From contig JADLEQ010000103.1 in the NCBI GenBank assembly GCA_020846005.1, positions 1-64,000 of the forward strand: a DNA stretch of 64,000 nt, given 5' to 3'. This DNA is from Polyangiaceae bacterium. GTDB taxonomy: Bacteria; Myxococcota_A; Polyangia; Polyangiales; Polyangiaceae. Positions within the stretch are counted from its first letter, which is position 1; each line of letters starts with the position of its first letter. The notes beneath the pieces were generated by a model. The model ran no database searches. It saw only the letters and a list, made by a program, of their open reading frames with translations, and was not told the origin of the DNA. This document shows positions 30,690 through 52,038 of the stretch, piece by piece. The position numbers and the translations under genes were made by a program.

Positions 30690-30895
30690 GGCTCCTGGTA
30701 CGGGAGCCCCGCGGGCCGATGGCTCGCCGGCGCGCTCGACGCCAAGGGAAGCCGGTGTGAGACCGGCGCGGCCCCCGCCACTGTAACCGGGGACGAGATC
30801 GGGAAGAGCCACTGGATCGCGGTCGTCCTTCGGGGCGGCGGATCTGGGAAGGACCCGGTCGAGGACGATCCGGAAGCCAGGAGACCTGTCGAGCG
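30690..30895 (+). promoter_or_regulatory. Cobalamin riboswitch (copy 1)
   Basis: Clear adenosylcobalamin-type aptamer. The core GGGAAGCCGGTGTGAGACC begins at 30747, followed by the conserved CCCCGCCACTGTAA (to 30786), AGAGCCACTGG (about 30805), and a near-consensus B12 box AGCCAGGAGACCTG at 30875-30888. It lies on the + strand 120-130 bp ahead of the lipoprotein gene at 31019, which has no transporter beside it. The 5' boundary is approximate. Confidence 0.93.
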
Positions 30896-31018
30896 CTCCG
30901 ACCACGCAGACCCGCGGGGTGTCGGGCGCGTGGAGGTCGAGCCGCCGGCTCGCTTCCGCGCTCCACGTCTGCCCCGTGGGGATGCCCTCGCCCGCGGGGT
31001 GCGGGAACGGAGTGAGAC

Positions 31019-32512
31019 ATGAACAGGAAGTACGATCGTTCGTTGCTGGTGGTGGTGGGCGCGCTCGCGGTCGCGGGGTGCACCGAGGACGAGCCCGTCG
31101 GGGGCGGAGGTGTGACGGGGGGCCGGGCCGGGAGCGACGCCGGTGTGGGCGGGGGTGCGAGCGGGAGCGGGGGAACGAGCGGGGGCGGAGGCGCGAGCGG
31201 GGGCGGAGGCGCGAGCGGGGGCGGAGGCGCGAGCGGGAGCGGAGGCGCGAGCGGGAGCGGGGGCGGAGGCGCGAGCGGGAGCGGGGGTGCGAGCGGGAGC
31301 GGAGGCGGGGGTGCGAGCGGGAGCGGCGGCGGAGGCGCGAGCGGGAGCGCGGGCGGGAGCGGGGGCGGGAGCGGTGCGAGCGGCGCGGACGCCGGGGCCG
31401 ACGCGGCCACCGACGGCGCCGCCGGCGCGGCAGGAGACGGCGGCGCGTCGAAGCGAGCGCTCGTCGTCGGCACCGACTACTGGTCGATGGCGGAGGTGGC
31501 GACCATCGATCTCGCGACGGGCGCCGTGCTGGGGCGGATAACGCTCTCGGACCAGGACTCGGTGCCGGTGGCGAGCGGCGGCGTGGGTGGTGTGCTCGAG
31601 CGCACCCTGGGCGCGCTCGTGCTCTTCACGCCGGCCGGAGCCGTCGATCGGACCATCGCCCTCGCGCCTGGGGACGCTGGCGGTTCGCCCGTCAACCCGC
31701 GCGGCTTCGTGGTGGCGCCGTCCGGCCTCAAGGCGTGGGTGCCGCTCTACGGTCGCGCCGAGATCGCAGTCGTCGACCTGGCGGCCGGTACGGTAGCGTC
31801 GACCATCGACCTCTCGGGGCTGATGGCGTCGGGCGACACCGACGGCGGCATCGAGGTGGGCACGCCGCTCCTCGCCGGCGGCAAGCTCTGGGTGACGCTC
31901 GGCCGCACCGATCTCACGACCATCCTCCCGCCGAGCTACGAGCTGCCGTGCTCGGCGTCACCGTCGCTGCTGGTCGCGATCGATCCCGCCACCGACACCG
32001 TGCTCGCGCCGACCACCGGCATCGAGCTCGGCGTGGTGAGCCCGTCCGCGCTCGAGTCCGACGGGACGAACCTCTACGTGCTCGGGCCCGGGTGCTTCGA
32101 GCCCGCGGACGGCGGCACGGCGCGCGCTCGCCACGGCATCGACCAGATCGCCCTCGGCTCCGGCGCGGTGACCGCCGTCTTCCGGCCCGCGTCGCCCGAC
32201 TACTTGAACGGGCTGCTCGTGGTCTCCACCACCGAAGGCTTCGTGCAGAGCTTCGACTCGTTCTTCATGACGCAGTGGAGCCGGTGGCCGCTCGGCGCCG
32301 CCGCCCTGGGTGCGTCGCTCGCCGAGATCCCGGACGGCGCCGCGACCGACGGCGACGGCGCCCTGATCGGCGTCCGCTCGGTGCCCGGCGACGGCGGCTC
32401 CTCGCGCGAGGTCGTGCGCTACGACGTGGCCAGCGGCAACGTCGGCGTCGTGGCGAGCGAGCCCTGGACGAGCGGCGTCGGGTTCGTGGGAGGCGTCGCG
32501 GTCGTCCGCTGA
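31019..32512 (+). CDS. Riboswitch-controlled YVTN-like beta-propeller lipoprotein
   Basis: 497-aa lipoprotein: the signal ends LAVAGC with Cys21 lipidated. A long Gly/Ser/Ala linker (about 33-130) separates the anchor from a beta-propeller made of YVTN-type blades (EVATIDLATGAVLGRITL, EIAVVDLAAGTVASTIDL, LLVAIDPATDTVL) to the C-terminus. The ATG at 31019 is preceded by GGAGTGAG. A cobalamin riboswitch controls it, so it is expected to be made when B12 is scarce. In Bacteroidetes the surface propeller lipoprotein BtuG captures B12 for BtuB; this gene has the same fold and regulation but no sequence identity I can claim. A B12-capture role is inference; a second propeller lies at 42498-43745. 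Confidence 0.85.
   Translation: MNRKYDRSLLVVVGALAVAGCTEDEPVGGGGVTGGRAGSDAGVGGGASGSGGTSGGGGASGGGGASGGGGASGSGGASGSGGGGASGSGGASGSGGGGASGSGGGGASGSAGGSGGGSGASGADAGADAATDGAAGAAGDGGASKRALVVGTDYWSMAEVATIDLATGAVLGRITLSDQDSVPVASGGVGGVLERTLGALVLFTPAGAVDRTIALAPGDAGGSPVNPRGFVVAPSGLKAWVPLYGRAEIAVVDLAAGTVASTIDLSGLMASGDTDGGIEVGTPLLAGGKLWVTLGRTDLTTILPPSYELPCSASPSLLVAIDPATDTVLAPTTGIELGVVSPSALESDGTNLYVLGPGCFEPADGGTARARHGIDQIALGSGAVTAVFRPASPDYLNGLLVVSTTEGFVQSFDSFFMTQWSRWPLGAAALGASLAEIPDGAATDGDGALIGVRSVPGDGGSSREVVRYDVASGNVGVVASEPWTSGVGFVGGVAVVR
31148..31383. repeat. Gly/Ser/Ala-coding degenerate tandem repeat
   Basis: About 235 bp of GAGCGGGGGCGGAGGCGC-type units repeated with small variations inside the lipoprotein gene at 31019. 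It encodes the flexible linker between the lipid anchor and the propeller. Such repeats vary in length between strains by slippage, so linker length may be polymorphic. Confidence 0.85.
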
Positions 32513-39384: not shown

Positions 39385-39855
39385 CTACGCGCGGACGAGC
39401 TGGGCCAGGTAGTGCTCGCGGCCGAGATCGCCGGCCAGCGACGCCTGCGTCTCCAGCCAGTCGATCGCGCCCTCCTCGTCGGCGAGGATCTTCTCGAGCA
39501 GCTCTCGCGTACCCGCGTCCCCCGTCTCGAGGCAGAGTCGGATGCCGGCGCGGAGGCGCTCGACCGCCTCGCGCTCGAGCGCGAGGTCGACCTGGTTCAT
39601 CTCGAGCGGGTTCTCGCCGACACGCACCGGGAACAGGCGCTGCATGTTGGGGACGCCATCCAGGAAGAGGATGCGGTCGATCACGGCGTCGGCGTGCCGC
39701 ATCTCCTCGAGCGACTCCTCGCGCTTCTTCTTGGCGAGCCCCCCGTACCCCTGGTTCGCGCACAGCTTGAAGTGCACGAAGTACTGGTTGATGGCCGTGA
39801 GCTCGCTCGAGAGCACCTCGTTCAGATGCTCGATCACCTGGGGATCTCCACGCAT
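39385..39855 (-). CDS. bfr: Bacterioferritin
   Basis: Iron-storage haem ferritin subunit of 156 aa that forms a 24-mer shell. Seen: VIEHLNEVLSSELTAINQY with ligand Glu18, EEMRHADAVID with Glu51 and His54 and the haem ligand Met52, Glu94, and EEGAIDWLE with Glu127. Position 130, His in active bacterioferritins (EEGHIDWLE), is Ala here, so one diiron ferroxidase ligand is missing. Heteromeric bacterioferritins with one deficient subunit are known in Neisseria and pseudomonads. The ATG at 39855 gives the normal length; earlier starts add only Arg/Gly sequence. It is divergent from bfd, and a Fur-like box lies between them. Confidence 0.95.
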   Translation of the reverse strand: MRGDPQVIEHLNEVLSSELTAINQYFVHFKLCANQGYGGLAKKKREESLEEMRHADAVIDRILFLDGVPNMQRLFPVRVGENPLEMNQVDLALEREAVERLRAGIRLCLETGDAGTRELLEKILADEEGAIDWLETQASLAGDLGREHYLAQLVRA

Positions 39856-39950
39856 GCGCGGTGAATGGGGCCGGCGGCGCCGCGTGGCAACCCGGCCGCC
39901 GGCGGCGCCGCCGCGGCCTGCCCCGCCGATCGGCCGCCGAGAAAACGACA

Positions 39951-39978
39951 TTGACAATCACTTTCAGTAAGCTACGCT
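39951..39978 (+). promoter_or_regulatory. Sigma-70-like promoter for bfd
   Basis: TTGACA at 39951-39956 is a perfect -35, followed after 16 bp by TACGCT (39973-39978) as -10. Transcription would start near 39985, only a few bases before the bfd ATG at 39988, so the mRNA would be nearly leaderless. The -35 and spacer overlap the Fur-like box. Confidence 0.5.
39952..39966. promoter_or_regulatory. Fur-like operator between bfr and bfd
   Basis: TGACAATCACTTTCA; read on the other strand it is TGAAAGTGATTGTCA, matching the 7-1-7 Fur core TGATAATGATTATCA at 12 of 15 positions. It lies between divergent iron-storage and ferredoxin genes and overlaps the bfd promoter, as expected for iron-responsive repression. 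Confidence 0.6.
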
Positions 39979-39987
39979 GCCTGGAGC

Positions 39988-40215
39988 ATGATCGTCTGCC
40001 ACTGCCGAGGCGTGACCGACCGAGCCATCCAGGAGGCGGTGCGTGGCGGCGCGCGAGGGCTCGCGGAGGTGACGGCTCGCTGTGGCGCTGGGGGCCGTTG
40101 CGGGGGCTGCCGCCCGCTGGTCGAGCTGGTCGTGCGCCTCGAGCTCGAGGCGTCGGGTCGGGCCGAGGCGGCTCCGGCTGCGGCGCTCGCCGCGCGCGTC
40201 GCCGCCGCGAGTTGA
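39988..40215 (+). CDS. bfd: Bacterioferritin-associated ferredoxin
   Basis: Small [2Fe-2S] protein that reduces bacterioferritin core iron so it can be released. Seen: the BFD signature C4-x-C6, then C38-x2-C41 (MIVCHCRGVTDRAIQEAV and GGRCGGCRPLV), with an extra Cys32. The 75-aa product is slightly longer than the E. coli 64 aa because of an Ala-rich tail. It is divergent from bfr and shares the intergenic Fur-like box. Confidence 0.93.
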   Translation: MIVCHCRGVTDRAIQEAVRGGARGLAEVTARCGAGGRCGGCRPLVELVVRLELEASGRAEAAPAAALAARVAAAS

Positions 40216-40239: not shown

Positions 40240-40425
40240 TCGCCCCGACAACTTCGAGTGACAGGTCCCGCACGGGGAAGCTCGGTGTGATGCCGACGCG
40301 GTCCCGCCGCCGTGAGCGAGGACGAAACCGGCGAGAGAGCCACTGGGCAACGCCCGCGCGAGCCGCGGGCGCCCTGGGAAGGCGCCGGGAGTAGGACGAT
40401 CCGCAAGCCGGAATACCCGCCGGGA
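40240..40425 (+). promoter_or_regulatory. Cobalamin riboswitch (copy 2)
   Basis: Second B12 aptamer, immediately after bfd. GGGGAAGCTCGGTGTGATG begins at 40274, followed by GTCCCGCCGCCGTGAG, AGAGCCACTGGGC (about 40336) and the B12 box AGCCGGAATACCCGCC at 40406-40421. It ends some 16-20 bases before the ATG of a BtuB-like receptor gene, close enough to mask its ribosome site (GGAG near 40429). The 5' end is approximate. Confidence 0.92.
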
Positions 40426-40440
40426 CCGGAGCGGACGCCC

Positions 40441-42501
40441 ATGCCGGTCGAGCACGGTGGTGTACAGCGGAGATCTCGCGCGATGGGCGCGGCGACGATG
40501 GTGGTCGGCTTGGCCGCCCTCGCCCGCGTCGCGCGTTCCGAGCCGGCGCCCGCCGAGGGCGCGGCCACTGAGCACGAGATCGAGGTCGTGGCGGATCGGG
40601 CGCACCGCGTCGAGCCCTCGCCGCGGGACCCGACGGCAGCGTCGACGGTCGTCTCGGGGCCGCGGCTCCGCGAGCCCGGCGTGACGCTCGCGGCGGTCGC
40701 CGCGCGCGTGCCCGGCGTGCAGATCGCCCGCGCGGGCTCTCCCGCCGACGGCGCGGCGCTCGGCCTCCGGGGCGCTCCGGCCGCCGAGACCCCCGTCTAC
40801 CTGGCGGGCGTGCGCCTGGACGACGATCTGACGGGCGCGACCGACCTCTCGACGGTACCCCCCTTCCTACTCGACCGCGTCGAGCTCTTCAGGGGTACCG
40901 CGCCCGACGCCGCCGATCGCCTCGGGATGGGAGGCGCCGTCCTGCTCGAGCCGCGGCGTCCGCGCCGCAGCGAGGCGAGCGTGGGCGCCGAGCTCGGGAG
41001 CCACGGCGCGCGCGCGGCCTGGGCCCACGCCGCGCTGGCGCGCGAGGACGGGGCAGGCGCGCTGGTGGCCGCGCACTACGACGCCGCGCGCAACGACTAC
41101 CCTTACGAGGACGACGGCGGCACCGCCTTCGATCCTTCCGACGACCGGGAGCGGCGCCGGAGCAACGCCGACCACGCCGGCACGGATCTGTGGCTCGTCG
41201 CCCGGACGGGCGGCGCCGGGGCGCGCGCGCTCACCGTGTTCGAGGCGTACGACCGCGAGCGCGGCGCGTCGGGGCTCGCGCTCGTCCCCGCGACGCGCGC
41301 GCGCTACCGCATCGATCGCCGCCTCGTCGCCGTGACGGGCGCCGCGCCCTGCGCCCGCGCAGCCCCCGGAGGCGACGCGCCGTGCACGCTCGAGCTCACG
41401 ACGAGCGCGCTCGCGGCCTCCAGCGAGCTGCTCGACCCGGCGCGCGAGCTCGGTCTGCTCGGCACGCGGCTCGACGTCCGCGGCGCCCGCGTCGGCTGGC
41501 GCGCCCGGCTGGAGACGGCGCCGACGCCCGCGTGGCGGTTCGTCCAGGACCTGTCGCGCGAGCACGCGACGCTGGCGGTCGACCGCGACGGCGCGCGCGA
41601 CCTCGCCGCGCGGAGCGAGGTCGTGCGAGGCAGCGCGGCCGCGCATCACCGCGGGACCGGGCGTACGGACGTCCTCGCGCTCGGGGCGCTCGAGTGCCAT
41701 CGCGCGGCGGTCGGGGCGGCGCTCGGCGCGTGCGATCCGCTGGAGCCCGTCGGGCGCGTCGGGATCCGCTGGCGCGTGGCGGAGACGGTGAGCCTGCTGG
41801 CGAACGGCGGCCGCTTCGCGCGGGCGCCGACGCTGGGCGAGCGGTACGGGTCGTCACCGCTCGTGCGCGGTAACGCTGCGCTCCGCCCGGAGCGCAGCCT
41901 CAACACCGACGCGGGCGTACGTCTCGCGGTGCCGGCGGCGGAGTCGGGGCGGCGGCTCGCGCTGTCCGCCGAGGTGGTCGCATTTGCGCGCTGGGCGGAC
42001 GACCTCATCGCGTATCGCCGCACGGGCTTCGGCACCGTCCGCCCGTACAACGTTGGGCGCGCGAGGCTCGTCGGCGGCGAGGGACTGGTCGTGGCGTCGC
42101 TCTTCGACGCGGTCGCCGCGGAGAGCAGCCTCACGCTCCTCGATCCGCGCGACACGAGCCCCGGCCGCGCGCTCACCAACGATCTCCTGCCGCACCGGTC
42201 GCGACTCGTCTTCGCGCAGGCCCTCGAGGCGTGGCTGCGCGCGCCCCTCCCGGGGGTGGATCGCGTGTCCGCGGGCGCCCGCCTGCTCCACCGATCGTCC
42301 AGGTTCGCGGACGAGGCGGGGCTGGTCGTGCTCGCCGCGGGCACGACGCTCGACTGCTTTGGAGCGCTGAGCCTCGCGGGCGACCGATTCGTCGTGCGGG
42401 CCGCGGTCGACGACGTGCTCGACGCGCACCCCCCGGATCTGCTCGGCCTCCCGCTCCCGGGGCGGACGGCCCACGGGAGCGTCGAGGTGACGCTGCCATG
42501 A
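40441..42501 (+). CDS. btuB: TonB-dependent receptor, BtuB-like (cobalamin uptake)
   Basis: Outer-membrane receptor of 686 aa that would import B12 using TonB energy. Seen: a signal peptide, a short N-terminal segment, then the plug domain (TAASTVVSGPRLREPGVTLA, VPGVQIARAGSPADGAALGL, VYLAGVRLDDD, LDRVELFRGTAPDAADRLGM) and a 22-strand barrel with FVQDLSREHATLAVD, GIRWRVAETVSLLANGGRFA, APTLGERYG and LRPERSLNTDAGVRL, the last two being TonB-receptor hallmarks. The ATG at 40441 follows the riboswitch; upstream in-frame codons lie inside the aptamer. B12 specificity rests on the riboswitch, not on substrate residues I can name. It overlaps the next gene by ATGA. Confidence 0.88.
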   Translation: MPVEHGGVQRRSRAMGAATMVVGLAALARVARSEPAPAEGAATEHEIEVVADRAHRVEPSPRDPTAASTVVSGPRLREPGVTLAAVAARVPGVQIARAGSPADGAALGLRGAPAAETPVYLAGVRLDDDLTGATDLSTVPPFLLDRVELFRGTAPDAADRLGMGGAVLLEPRRPRRSEASVGAELGSHGARAAWAHAALAREDGAGALVAAHYDAARNDYPYEDDGGTAFDPSDDRERRRSNADHAGTDLWLVARTGGAGARALTVFEAYDRERGASGLALVPATRARYRIDRRLVAVTGAAPCARAAPGGDAPCTLELTTSALAASSELLDPARELGLLGTRLDVRGARVGWRARLETAPTPAWRFVQDLSREHATLAVDRDGARDLAARSEVVRGSAAAHHRGTGRTDVLALGALECHRAAVGAALGACDPLEPVGRVGIRWRVAETVSLLANGGRFARAPTLGERYGSSPLVRGNAALRPERSLNTDAGVRLAVPAAESGRRLALSAEVVAFARWADDLIAYRRTGFGTVRPYNVGRARLVGGEGLVVASLFDAVAAESSLTLLDPRDTSPGRALTNDLLPHRSRLVFAQALEAWLRAPLPGVDRVSAGARLLHRSSRFADEAGLVVLAAGTTLDCFGALSLAGDRFVVRAAVDDVLDAHPPDLLGLPLPGRTAHGSVEVTLP

Positions 42502-43745
42502 GCCGCCGGCGTGCTGATCGCGCCGCGGCGCTCGGGGCGCTCGCGCTGGCTGCCTGCGACGTGCGAGCGCTCGACCCGGGGCGGTCGCCCGTGGACGCCG
42601 GAGGCGACGGCGCGTGCGGCCGCGGCGTGGCGGTGATCTCGATCGGCGACGACTACCAGTCCGCGAACGTGAGCGCCCTCGGCGTGGACGGCGCCGTGCT
42701 CTCCGGCTCGTTGCTCTCCTCAGCGAGCCGACCGCCGGGGCTCGTGGCGCCGCTCGGGGGCGACGCGGTGCTGCCGTCCCTGCCCCAGCGCGGCGGTCGG
42801 ATCGCGGTGATCGACCGCTACCCGAGCGGGGTCGTCACCTGGATCGATCTGGCGACCGCCAGCGTCCCGGCGCAGCTCGACGTCCGCACCGGGTTTACCT
42901 CGAACCCGCACGATCTCGTGGAGGTGGCGCAGGGCAAGGCGTACGTCACGAGGTACGAGCGCAACCACCGGGCGGGGCGCGAGCCGCACGACGCCGGGGA
43001 CGATCTGCTGATCGTCGACCCCTCGGTCCCGCGCGTCCTCGGGCGTGTGGATCTCGTGCCGGCGATGGCTGGGCGCGAGCCGTTCCTCCCCCGACCGGAT
43101 CGAGCCGTCCTCGCCGGCGGACGCGTGCTCGTCGTCCTCGCAGGGTACACGGCCGACTTCGCCGACGCGGCCGACGGCCGGGTGGTCGCGATCGATCCGG
43201 CCACCGACTCGATCGACGAGGTCCTCGTGCTCCCGGGGCTTCGGGGGTGCGCAGGCGCCGCCGTCTCCCCGACCGGGGCCGAGATCGCGGTGTCGTGCCC
43301 GGGGCTGCTCCTCTCGGACTCGCTCGACGACTCGGCGATCGTCCGCGTCCGCGTCGAACCGCCGCTCACCGAGATCGCGCGCTACCCCGCGAGCACGCTC
43401 GGGGCCGGCAAGGTCGGGTTCCGCGCGGCCTACGCCTCGGGCGGGCTGCTGCTCACAGCGGTGTTCGGACGCGAGGCCTCCCCCGCCGCTCCGGCGCTCG
43501 AGGACTCCCTGGTCGAGCTCGACCTCGGCGGCGGGACGGCGCGCGAGCTCCTGCGCTCGAGCGGCGCGCCGTTCACGCTCGGGGATCCGGTGTGTCTCGA
43601 CGCGTGCGGCGTCTGCTTCGCCCCGGACGCCGGGCGCCGCGTCGTGCACCGGCTCGCCGTCGGGGAGGCGACGGTCGACTCGCCCGTGCCGCTGCCGGTG
43701 GAGGAGGCGCTCGGCCTCCGGCCGCGCCAGCTGGGTGCGCTCTAG
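42498..43745 (+). CDS. Beta-propeller lipoprotein coupled to btuB
   Basis: 415-aa lipoprotein: signal ALGALALAAC with Cys20, then a short linker and a YVTN-like propeller (VAVISIGDDYQSANVSALG, VVTWIDLATASVPAQLDV, LIVDPSVPRVLGRVDLVP, VVAIDPATDSIDEVLVL) with several Cys near the end (CLDACGVCFAPDAG). The ATG at 42498 overlaps the btuB stop, so it is co-translated under the same cobalamin riboswitch. By fold, anchor and coupling it parallels Bacteroidetes BtuG, the surface lipoprotein that hands B12 to BtuB. This is analogy, not shown homology. It shares design with the riboswitch-controlled propeller at 31019. Confidence 0.85.
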   Translation: MSRRRADRAAALGALALAACDVRALDPGRSPVDAGGDGACGRGVAVISIGDDYQSANVSALGVDGAVLSGSLLSSASRPPGLVAPLGGDAVLPSLPQRGGRIAVIDRYPSGVVTWIDLATASVPAQLDVRTGFTSNPHDLVEVAQGKAYVTRYERNHRAGREPHDAGDDLLIVDPSVPRVLGRVDLVPAMAGREPFLPRPDRAVLAGGRVLVVLAGYTADFADAADGRVVAIDPATDSIDEVLVLPGLRGCAGAAVSPTGAEIAVSCPGLLLSDSLDDSAIVRVRVEPPLTEIARYPASTLGAGKVGFRAAYASGGLLLTAVFGREASPAAPALEDSLVELDLGGGTARELLRSSGAPFTLGDPVCLDACGVCFAPDAGRRVVHRLAVGEATVDSPVPLPVEEALGLRPRQLGAL

Positions 43746-43878: not shown

Positions 43879-45450
<1,572 letters not shown>

Positions 45451-49381: not shown

Positions 49382-50488
49382 TCAGCCCGGCGCGAAGCCG
49401 TACCGATCGCTCGCTGCGGGGCCGGGCAGCGCGTCGCGCGCGAGGAGCACCGCCCGCACCGTCCACAGCTCGCCGAAGATGCGGTGGCGCGCCGTCTGGT
49501 CGAGGTAGTCGACCCCGCTCGAGCCGCCGGTCCCCACCCGGCGGCCGATGACGCGCTCCACCATCCGCGCGTGGCGCGTGCGCCACAGCACCAGCTGCTC
49601 CTCGAGCTCGACGACGGTGTCGAGCAGTAGCCTGGGCCACGCGAGCAGGGGCAGCTCACGGTAGGACTCGATGAACAGCGCGCCCGCCCGGACGCGTCGC
49701 GCTCGCGGGCGTGCCGCGTCGTCGACGTCGCGCGCCTCCAGGAAGTCCCGCGCCGCGTCGGTGCTCGCCTCGAGCTGACGCGCCAGCGCCGCCGGGTCCG
49801 TGGCGAGCACCGCGGTGAGCCGCGCGAGCTTCTCGGCGTGTCCCGCTCGCAGGCGCGCGAGGTAGTCCGCGAGGAACCGCTCGACGACCCCTTCGTCCCC
49901 GGGATCCCCCGGGCTCGAGCCGTGGATCGGCGTCCGGTGCAGCCAGTCGTGCAGCGCGGCGCGCAGCGTCCGCTCGCCTCGCACCGCCTGGAGGCGCTCG
50001 CGGGCGAGGCGGCCCGCGGGCGTGTCGCCCGCCAGCTTCTCGATATGATCGAGCGGGTTGGAGCCGGCGTACGCCGCGCGCTGGGCCTCCTCGAGACCGA
50101 GCAGGATCTCGAGCTCGCGCATCTGAAACGACTGGAACCCGCTCGCGGGGACCAGCTTGTCCCGGAACGCGAGGAAGTCCTGCGGCGTGAGCGTCTCCAT
50201 GACCCGGAACGCGTCGATCGTGTGCTCCAGGATCGTGCCGCCGCGCCGGAGGTGGTGCACGACGAACGGGACGTGCTCCTCCGGCACCCGCGGCTCCGCG
50301 AGGTGATCCCGCGCGAGGCGGAGCTCGGAGAGCAGCAGCTTGAACCAGAGCTCGAACGTCTGGTGGACGAGCACGAAGTGCAGCTCGTCCGGTAGTAGCT
50401 TCGACTCGTCGCGCTCGAGGCCGCCTTGCAGCGAGAGCAGGGCGTCGAGCTGGAGGTAGTCCCAGTACGTGGGGGGCGGCTGGATCAT
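49382..50488 (-). CDS. kynA: Tryptophan 2,3-dioxygenase
   Basis: Haem enzyme opening the indole ring of L-tryptophan to N-formylkynurenine, first step of the kynurenine pathway. Seen: TYWDYLQLDALLSLQ, HFVLVHQTFELWFKLLLSEL (distal substrate pocket), SGFQSFQMRELEILLG, the haem-ligand His in LWRTRHARMVERVIG, and GTGGSSGVDYLDQT. The 368-aa length is above the bacterial norm (~280) owing to insertions after about residue 180. The ATG at 50488 gives MIQPPPTYWDY; earlier codons lie in intergenic sequence. It is divergent from an aldehyde dehydrogenase. No other kyn gene is in the window. Confidence 0.95.
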   Translation of the reverse strand: MIQPPPTYWDYLQLDALLSLQGGLERDESKLLPDELHFVLVHQTFELWFKLLLSELRLARDHLAEPRVPEEHVPFVVHHLRRGGTILEHTIDAFRVMETLTPQDFLAFRDKLVPASGFQSFQMRELEILLGLEEAQRAAYAGSNPLDHIEKLAGDTPAGRLARERLQAVRGERTLRAALHDWLHRTPIHGSSPGDPGDEGVVERFLADYLARLRAGHAEKLARLTAVLATDPAALARQLEASTDAARDFLEARDVDDAARPRARRVRAGALFIESYRELPLLAWPRLLLDTVVELEEQLVLWRTRHARMVERVIGRRVGTGGSSGVDYLDQTARHRIFGELWTVRAVLLARDALPGPAASDRYGFAPG

Positions 50489-50610
50489 GGTGGTCCGGCG
50501 GGCTCCGCGGTGGAGCGCGACACGCCCCGGGATAGGGCAGGCGTCGCGCGCCGGCAACCGGACGCCGGCGTTCGGCGGGGAGGCGAGGCGGGCGTGGTAG
50601 ACCACCCGCC

Positions 50611-52038
50611 GTGGAACCGCTCCTCCTCTCGTCGCCGTGCGCGTCGGGCGCCGCGCGCGCGCGCGCCCCGATCCGCGCGCCATGGGATGGCGCCGAGCTC
50701 GCCGAGGTCGAGCAGGCGTCTGCGGCCGACGTGCGCGAGGTGCTCGAGGTCCAGCGGCGGCTCGTCCGCGAGCCGCGCGCGCGCCTCCCCGTGCACGAGC
50801 GCGCCGCGATCCTCAGGCGCGCCGCGGCGGCGGTGCGGGCGCGGCGTGAGGAGCTGGCGCGCGGGATCGCGCTCGAGGGCGGCAAGCCCCTGGTCGACTC
50901 GCGCGTGGAGACCGATCGTTGCGCAGCCGGGCTCGAGTGGCTGGCGGGGGAGGCGGAGCGCCTCGCCGGCGACGAGGTGCCGCTCGGCGCGACCCGCGCC
51001 ACCGACGGGCGGCTCGCCTTCACCACGCCGGAGCCGATCGGGATCGTGGCGGCCGTGAGCGCGTTCAACCACCCGCTCAATTTGATCGCGCACCAAGCGG
51101 GGCCCGCGGTCGCGGCCGGGTGCCCGGTGATCGTGAAGCCGGCGCCGGAGACGCCGCTGTCCTGCCTCCGCCTGGTCGGGCTGCTCCACGAGGCGGGGCT
51201 GCCGCCCGAGCAGTGCGTGGCGCTGCCGTGCCCAAACGAGGTGGCCGAGGCTCTGGTGACCAGCGACCGGCTCGCGTACGTCTCCTTCATCGGGAGCGCG
51301 CGCGTCGGCTGGTGGCTCCGATCGCGGCTCGCGCCTGGTGTGCGCTCCGGCCACGAGCATGGCGGGGCCGCGCCCGTGATCGTGGACGAGTCGGCGGACC
51401 TGGAGCGCGCCGTCCCGCTCCTCGTGAAGGGGGGCTACTACCACGCGGGGCAGGTCTGCGTGAGCGTGCAGCGGGTCTACGTGCACCGCCGCCGGGCTCG
51501 AGAGCTTGAGGAGCGCCTCGAGGGCGCCGTTCGCGCCCTGCGGGTCGACGATCCGACACTGGAGACGACGGACGTGGGTCCGCTGATCCGCGAGGCCGAC
51601 GTCCTGCGCGTGGGGGAGTGGGTCGCGGAGGCCGTCGGCGCCGGGGGGCGGCTGGTGACCGGCGGCGCGCGGGTGGCCCGTCAGGCGTTCGCGCCGACGC
51701 TGCTCGCCGATCCGCCGGAGTCGACGCGCGTCATGCGCGAGGAGGTGTTTGGCCCCGTCGTCTGCGTGAGCCCGTTCGACACGCTCGAGGAGGCCGTCTC
51801 GCGTGCCAACTCCACGCGGTGGGCGTTCCAGGCGGCGGTGTTCACCGCGGACCTCGGCCACGCGCTCGCGACGGCGCGCGGGCTCGACGCGAGCGCCGTC
51901 CTCGTGAACGATCACACGGCCTTCCGCGCCGACTGGATGCCCTTCGGGGGTAGGCGAGAGTCCGGGCTCGGGGTCGGGGGGATGCCGGCGTCCGTCCGCG
52001 AGCTGACGGCCTTCAAGCTGATCGTCCTGCGCGGATGA
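50611..52038 (+). CDS. NAD(P)-dependent aldehyde dehydrogenase
   Basis: 475-aa ALDH-superfamily enzyme that oxidises an aldehyde to an acid. Seen: PIGIVAAVSAFNHPLNLIAH, PVIVKPAPETPLSCLRLV, VSFIGSARVGWWL, general base Glu249 in EHGGAAPVIV (usual ELGG), catalytic Cys283 in GQVCVSVQR and FGPVVCVSPFDTLEEAV. GQVC.S.QR is seen in lactaldehyde- and glyceraldehyde-type ALDHs. The GTG at 50611 starts near the fold; no ribosome site is clear. It overlaps the dus gene by ATGA. The substrate is not assignable; the link to kynA is only positional. Confidence 0.87.
   Translation: MEPLLLSSPCASGAARARAPIRAPWDGAELAEVEQASAADVREVLEVQRRLVREPRARLPVHERAAILRRAAAAVRARREELARGIALEGGKPLVDSRVETDRCAAGLEWLAGEAERLAGDEVPLGATRATDGRLAFTTPEPIGIVAAVSAFNHPLNLIAHQAGPAVAAGCPVIVKPAPETPLSCLRLVGLLHEAGLPPEQCVALPCPNEVAEALVTSDRLAYVSFIGSARVGWWLRSRLAPGVRSGHEHGGAAPVIVDESADLERAVPLLVKGGYYHAGQVCVSVQRVYVHRRRARELEERLEGAVRALRVDDPTLETTDVGPLIREADVLRVGEWVAEAVGAGGRLVTGGARVARQAFAPTLLADPPESTRVMREEVFGPVVCVSPFDTLEEAVSRANSTRWAFQAAVFTADLGHALATARGLDASAVLVNDHTAFRADWMPFGGRRESGLGVGGMPASVRELTAFKLIVLRG

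Follow-up and report, generated by a model that had tools for sequence, protein, structure and literature searches.

A cobalamin riboswitch, a gene for a BtuB-like TonB-dependent transporter (P0001) and a gene for a BtuG-like propeller lipoprotein (P0002) follow one another in a 64,000-nucleotide stretch of DNA from a Polyangiaceae bacterium of the phylum Myxococcota (assembly GCA_020846005.1, contig JADLEQ010000103.1), hereafter called the window. We propose, with a probability of roughly 0.78, that this locus encodes an outer-membrane system that captures and takes up cobamides; the lipoprotein is predicted to reside at this membrane and to bind B12. An earlier note on this DNA, made from the letters alone, had described a cobalamin riboswitch followed by a TonB receptor gene whose stop overlaps the start of a propeller lipoprotein gene. 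Each of these elements is present where the note had placed it: the riboswitch matches RF00174 with 58.8 bits (gathering score, 31.5), the receptor has plug and barrel domains, and the stop codon of P0001 and the start codon of P0002 share four nucleotides (ATGA). The region described there is half of a larger arrangement. A second unit (30720-32512), absent from the earlier note, begins about 9.5 kb upstream with a riboswitch that scores higher (90.1 bits) and precedes the gene for another propeller lipoprotein, P0003. The whole 5.7 Mb genome, which is 99% complete, contains two above-threshold cobalamin riboswitches; both are inside the window, and both head a propeller-lipoprotein gene or operon.

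The P0001 protein carries the Pfam domains Plug (8.6e-12) and TonB_dep_Rec_b-barrel (1.7e-15), and its nearest solved relative is BtuB. Specifically, E. coli BtuB ranks first when the single sequence is used to query solved structures. A profile of the P0001 family (18 relatives) likewise places E. coli BtuB first, at 6e-40, followed by BtuB2 and BtuB3 of Bacteroides thetaiotaomicron at 2e-31 to 5e-31, with the colicin I receptor (3e-21) and the pyrroloquinoline quinone (PQQ) transporter (6e-11) lower in the same ranking. The possibility that P0001 and P0002 form a YncE/PqqU pair was rejected on the distance between the BtuB and PQQ transporter matches. P0001 scores far under the cut-off of the TIGR01779 equivalog model (78 versus 599.7 bits) and also matches the model of the siderophore receptor MxcH (1.3e-25). 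Therefore, we name it BtuB-like rather than BtuB.

Like BtuG, P0002 is a predicted lipoprotein, having a signal peptide with the lipobox ALAAC (Cys20), and its gene adjoins a btuB-like gene under a B12 riboswitch. Cysteine occupies the lipobox column in 35 of the 36 aligned family members. The protein matches no Pfam or NCBIfam family, and a single-sequence query of the PDB returned nothing useful. When supplied with an alignment of homologues, AlphaFold2 produced a model of mature P0002 with about 27 strands (predicted local distance difference test score [pLDDT] 92.4, predicted template modeling score 0.91), which bears out the expectation of the earlier note that structure prediction would yield a propeller. 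Among 350,542 PDB chains searched with Foldseek, 14 of the 15 best matches to this model are Bacteroides BtuG proteins (E about 1e-11), and many of these structures were solved with a corrinoid bound. Alignment with VIA-align gives Z scores of about 31 for BtuG (31.2 to 8blw_B, with a root-mean-square deviation of 3.1 over 316 amino acids); the siderophore-binding lipoprotein XusB is also among the structural neighbors. Based on this model, we predict with high confidence that P0002 is a beta-propeller like BtuG, which itself is seven-bladed. Propellers resemble one another, so that a shared fold is not in itself proof of function. The 36 family members are without exception acidic (isoelectric points 4.1 to 5.4), which is in keeping with a negatively charged face as in BtuG, though not specific to it.

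The arrangement is conserved in the phylum. Homologues of P0002 are present in 87 of the 241 genomes of the class (Polyangia), and with a P0002 profile (E 1e-5) the count for the phylum is 124 of 379 genomes, some of them from families beyond the class. The lower-scoring of these phylum-wide matches span only a portion of the protein and could represent other propellers. When a single genome per species (84,980 species) was scanned with a pattern built on a closer set of 14 sequences, 40 P0002-type loci were recovered, including those of Sorangium cellulosum and Minicystis rosea. Nearly all are recorded as Myxococcota or Deltaproteobacteria, but the pattern is restrictive and therefore does not establish absence in other groups.

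For a comparison of gene order, 40 homologue loci from 39 genomes were chosen for spread and contig room. RF00174 is found in 28 of them. A homologue of P0001 lies upstream of the propeller gene in 27, ending no more than 83 nucleotides from the propeller start in 25 cases and about 0.3 kb away in the other two, and the two genes overlap by 1 or 4 nucleotides in 15 of those 25. In four loci, the riboswitch is located 25 to 95 nucleotides directly 5′ of the propeller gene. Other families of the class have more divergent propeller lipoproteins in the vicinity of a cobalamin riboswitch; a transporter homologue lies upstream of most of them, and the profile of these proteins is related to both the P0002 family (E 2.5e-34) and the P0003 family (1.3e-33). 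One locus, L065 (G200:C63:6793-13935), has two cobalamin riboswitches, one 5′ of the transporter and the other directly 5′ of the propeller. A distant homologue (25% identity; locus L133) was also seen on a contig of a metagenome-assembled genome deposited as Klebsiella pneumoniae, a label that is probably wrong.

Several results weigh against the proposed system or favor an alternative. An archaeal S-layer propeller does as well as BtuG by Z score (31.0) and nitrous oxide reductase reaches 29.4, while hydrazine synthase, YncE and a gluconolactonase outscore BtuG in the search with a broad propeller profile. No match to PF16819 (DUF5074) was found in P0002, in its 36 family members or in this genome. 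Among the 40 compared loci, 12 lack an above-threshold riboswitch, and in 13 the stretch examined contains no homologue of the transporter. Finally, P0002 carries Asp at position +2. Given the first of these results, and given how common propellers are, P0002 could be an ordinary propeller lipoprotein that stands beside BtuB by chance and resembles BtuG only in its fold. We regard such a coincidence as highly improbable, because the linkage is kept across many diverged genomes, which largely refutes chance. Moreover, the pairing of riboswitch and propeller exceeds chance because the two above-threshold sites of this genome, one of them heading the second unit in the window, both precede propeller lipoproteins, and because the same holds for the lone listed cobalamin riboswitch of each of 11 relatives. 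In these relatives, the site lies 2.2 to 2.8 kb 5′ of the propeller homologue and on its strand; they were picked by eye from a listing with stricter filters that lose some weak sites, and their loci are not independent, so that a joint chance calculated for them serves as illustration only.

The Asp residue bears on where P0002 resides. Asp+2 is an inner-membrane retention signal for E. coli lipoproteins, and the sequence that begins at the lipobox cysteine (CDVRALD) contains, by eye, no Bacteroidetes lipoprotein export signal of the kind that BtuG2 displays as MKWD after its cysteine, a signal that may not apply outside Bacteroidetes. Because the export of lipoproteins to the surface of myxobacteria is poorly understood, these features lend some weight to a periplasmic propeller, namely a riboswitch-controlled accessory lipoprotein that stabilizes the transporter or receives B12 inside, with no surface lid. 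We consider this arrangement unlikely, though it deserves more attention than the other alternatives, given that Gly, Asn or Ser is the +2 residue in the majority of relatives, that the fold and gene pairing of P0002 resemble those of a surface lid, BtuG, and that a BtuH-fold partner (described below) also points to capture at the surface. In Myxococcus, the residue suggested to mark inner-membrane lipoproteins is Lys+2 (PMC3222651).

We next consider how P0002 and BtuG are related. PF16819 is a propeller family linked to B12 proteins (PMC13398666). BtuG entries are found weakly by the P0002 family profile (E about 0.2), at about 1e-3 by the profile of divergent relatives and at 5e-5 by the broad propeller profile. 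A profile search, which the earlier note had put forward, thus yields weak similarity to BtuG of a kind shared with other propellers, and by sequence P0002 does not belong to PF16819. Judging from all the comparisons above, P0002 probably works like BtuG and would bind corrinoids, and a distant common origin of the two is possible. Common descent is unproven, and the recruitment of another propeller to the same job is the alternative. Among ten PF16819 loci scanned in the class, one (in genome G072) lies near a cobalamin riboswitch; it was set aside as a candidate, its propeller best matching the cytochrome d1 and YncE families.

The second unit in the window encodes P0003, a lipoprotein of 497 residues with a long linker. 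The P0003 family profile matches YVTN/Pizza propellers (to 5e-8), and comparing profile with profile links it to the P0002 family (probability 98.9, E 1.4e-17). On these sequence similarities, we call P0003 a putative propeller. A riboswitch is located directly upstream of relatives of P0003 in six loci.

In many homologue loci, a gene of a third lipoprotein family intervenes between the riboswitch and the gene for the transporter or propeller. The structure predicted for the Minicystis homologue (pLDDT 88) matches BtuH (7BIZ) at Z 13.7 and the BtuG1 H domain at Z 13.1, whereas the next-ranked fold scores 8.9, and the sequence profile finds BtuG1, through its H domain, as its only match in the PDB (E 0.019). 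As modeled, this riboswitch-linked family has the BtuH fold, and its members may bind B12. An assignment to DUF4465 was rejected, having no Pfam support while the fold search indicated BtuH. In the genome under study, a BtuH-like gene on contig C42 (locus L144) is preceded by a cobalamin riboswitch that scores below threshold (24.1 bits); the BtuH-like gene overlaps a gene for a BtuF-like periplasmic binding protein (PF01497). About 1.3 kb downstream of the latter gene is a second TonB-dependent receptor of 766 amino acids (L144 3788-6085, minus strand).

The genome, examined family by family, appears to need such a system. A search for the CbiC family, which carries out a step of corrin ring synthesis, found no member in the genome, and ten PF02310 B12-binding domains score above the cut-off. 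Having no CbiC, the cell should not make corrins; the organism is apparently unable to make B12 and should depend on its uptake. A FecCD permease gene is present in a single copy, beside what we take, by eye, to be an ATP-binding cassette (ABC) ATPase gene.

These partners also bear on the nature of the ligand. If the transporter-propeller pair imported a siderophore, PQQ or a cobalt complex and were merely co-regulated by cobalamin, this would account for the MxcH match of P0001, for XusB among the structural neighbors of P0002 and for the match of YncE, named as PQQ-associated, to the broad propeller profile. We find this very doubtful: among solved structures BtuB ranks first for the transporter family by a wide margin, a cobalamin riboswitch is located 5′ of the locus in many relatives, and there are BtuH-fold and BtuF-like partners.

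We return to the cobamide system and propose that it operates as follows. When cellular cobalamin is low, the riboswitch would permit the joint production of the BtuB-like transporter and the acidic propeller lipoprotein. P0002 would then be located at the outer membrane, probably exposed on the surface, where one face of the propeller may bind a corrinoid and pass it to the transporter in a lid-like complex, as BtuG does. P0003 and, elsewhere in the genome, the BtuH-like lipoprotein and BtuF-like protein could widen the capture set, and the single FecCD permease with its presumed ABC ATPase would complete import. The coordinates of these features are collected in Table 1.

Table 1. Features of the proposed cobamide capture system (positions in the window unless a locus is given)
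Feature	Position	Strand	Details
Cobalamin riboswitch 1 (RF00174), full length	30720-30907	+	90.1 bits, E 2.3e-21; ~110 nt 5′ of P0003
P0003, second propeller lipoprotein (putative)	31019-32512	+	Lipobox AVAGC, Cys21; Gly/Ser linker; YVTN-like repeats
Cobalamin riboswitch 2 (RF00174, model positions 46-168)	40275-40417	+	58.8 bits, E 2e-12
P0001, BtuB-like TonB-dependent transporter	40441-42501	+	Start uncertain, ATG 40441 or downstream ATG 40483
P0002, propeller lipoprotein, BtuG-like	42498-43745	+	4-nt overlap with P0001; lipobox; AlphaFold2 model; BtuG matches in the PDB
BtuH-like lipoprotein gene overlapping BtuF-like gene (PF01497, periplasmic binding protein)	L144 7366-9107	-	

No further operon member is evident 3′ of P0002, where an open reading frame starting near 43880 appears by eye to encode a serine/threonine kinase. 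Just 5′ of riboswitch 2 (39385-40213), a bacterioferritin-like reading frame on the minus strand and a small Bfd-like ferredoxin reading frame on the plus strand were recognized by reading. The reading frame at 49382-50683 (minus strand) resembles, as we take it, a tryptophan 2,3-dioxygenase.

On balance, we favor the broader view that Myxococcota run a full lipoprotein-assisted form of cobamide capture, comprising a BtuB-like transporter capped by a propeller, additional propellers under riboswitch control and binders with the BtuH fold. Its propeller family, undescribed in Pfam and NCBIfam, would be distinct from Bacteroidetes BtuG, and lipoprotein-capped vitamin transporters would thus have arisen or spread beyond Bacteroidota. 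BtuG has been reported to be confined to Bacteroidetes (PMC6143338), and the capping of TonB transporters by lipoproteins has been described as seemingly exclusive to that group (PMC10404256). A literature search that mostly excluded subscription papers turned up no account of the system in Myxococcota, and its novelty is therefore unproven. If this view is correct, a conserved equivalent exists in Myxococcota, mostly in environmental genomes rather than those of gut commensals, and capturing B12 with the aid of lipoproteins is a more widespread strategy. It would also supply new candidate B12-binding proteins and raise the question of whether the design came by descent, by transfer or by a second invention. 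The homologues in named strains of Sorangium cellulosum and Minicystis rosea make the system testable.

Among known systems, BtuF-like and FecCD/ABC genes recall the BtuB/BtuFCD system of E. coli, in which P0001 has its nearest solved relative, BtuB, but E. coli is reported to have no BtuG homologue (PMC6143338). DUF4465 (BtuJ) proteins are accessory proteins that bind B12 and are associated with TonB receptors and propellers, with some members in Myxococcota (PMC13398666); this domain differs from those found here and was not matched in the proteins scanned. The third lipoprotein shares its fold with BtuH of B. thetaiotaomicron (7BIZ; PMC8941943), yet it lies outside the window, has 18 to 22% identity (Minicystis homologue model) and is encoded by a gene of its own, which often follows the riboswitch and precedes that of the transporter or propeller. 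The BtuB-BtuG system of B. thetaiotaomicron (PMC6143338, PMC10404256) likewise pairs a riboswitch-controlled BtuB transporter with a beta-propeller lipoprotein, provides the best structural matches and has accessory BtuH-fold lipoproteins under similar control. The locus described here differs in phylum, in having no PF16819 match and in its identity of about 13 to 16% in structure alignments. The suggestion of the earlier note that a distant or independent equivalent of BtuB/BtuG exists outside Bacteroidota is supported by the propeller fold, a transporter closest to BtuB, conserved riboswitch control, and the BtuH-fold and BtuF-like partners.

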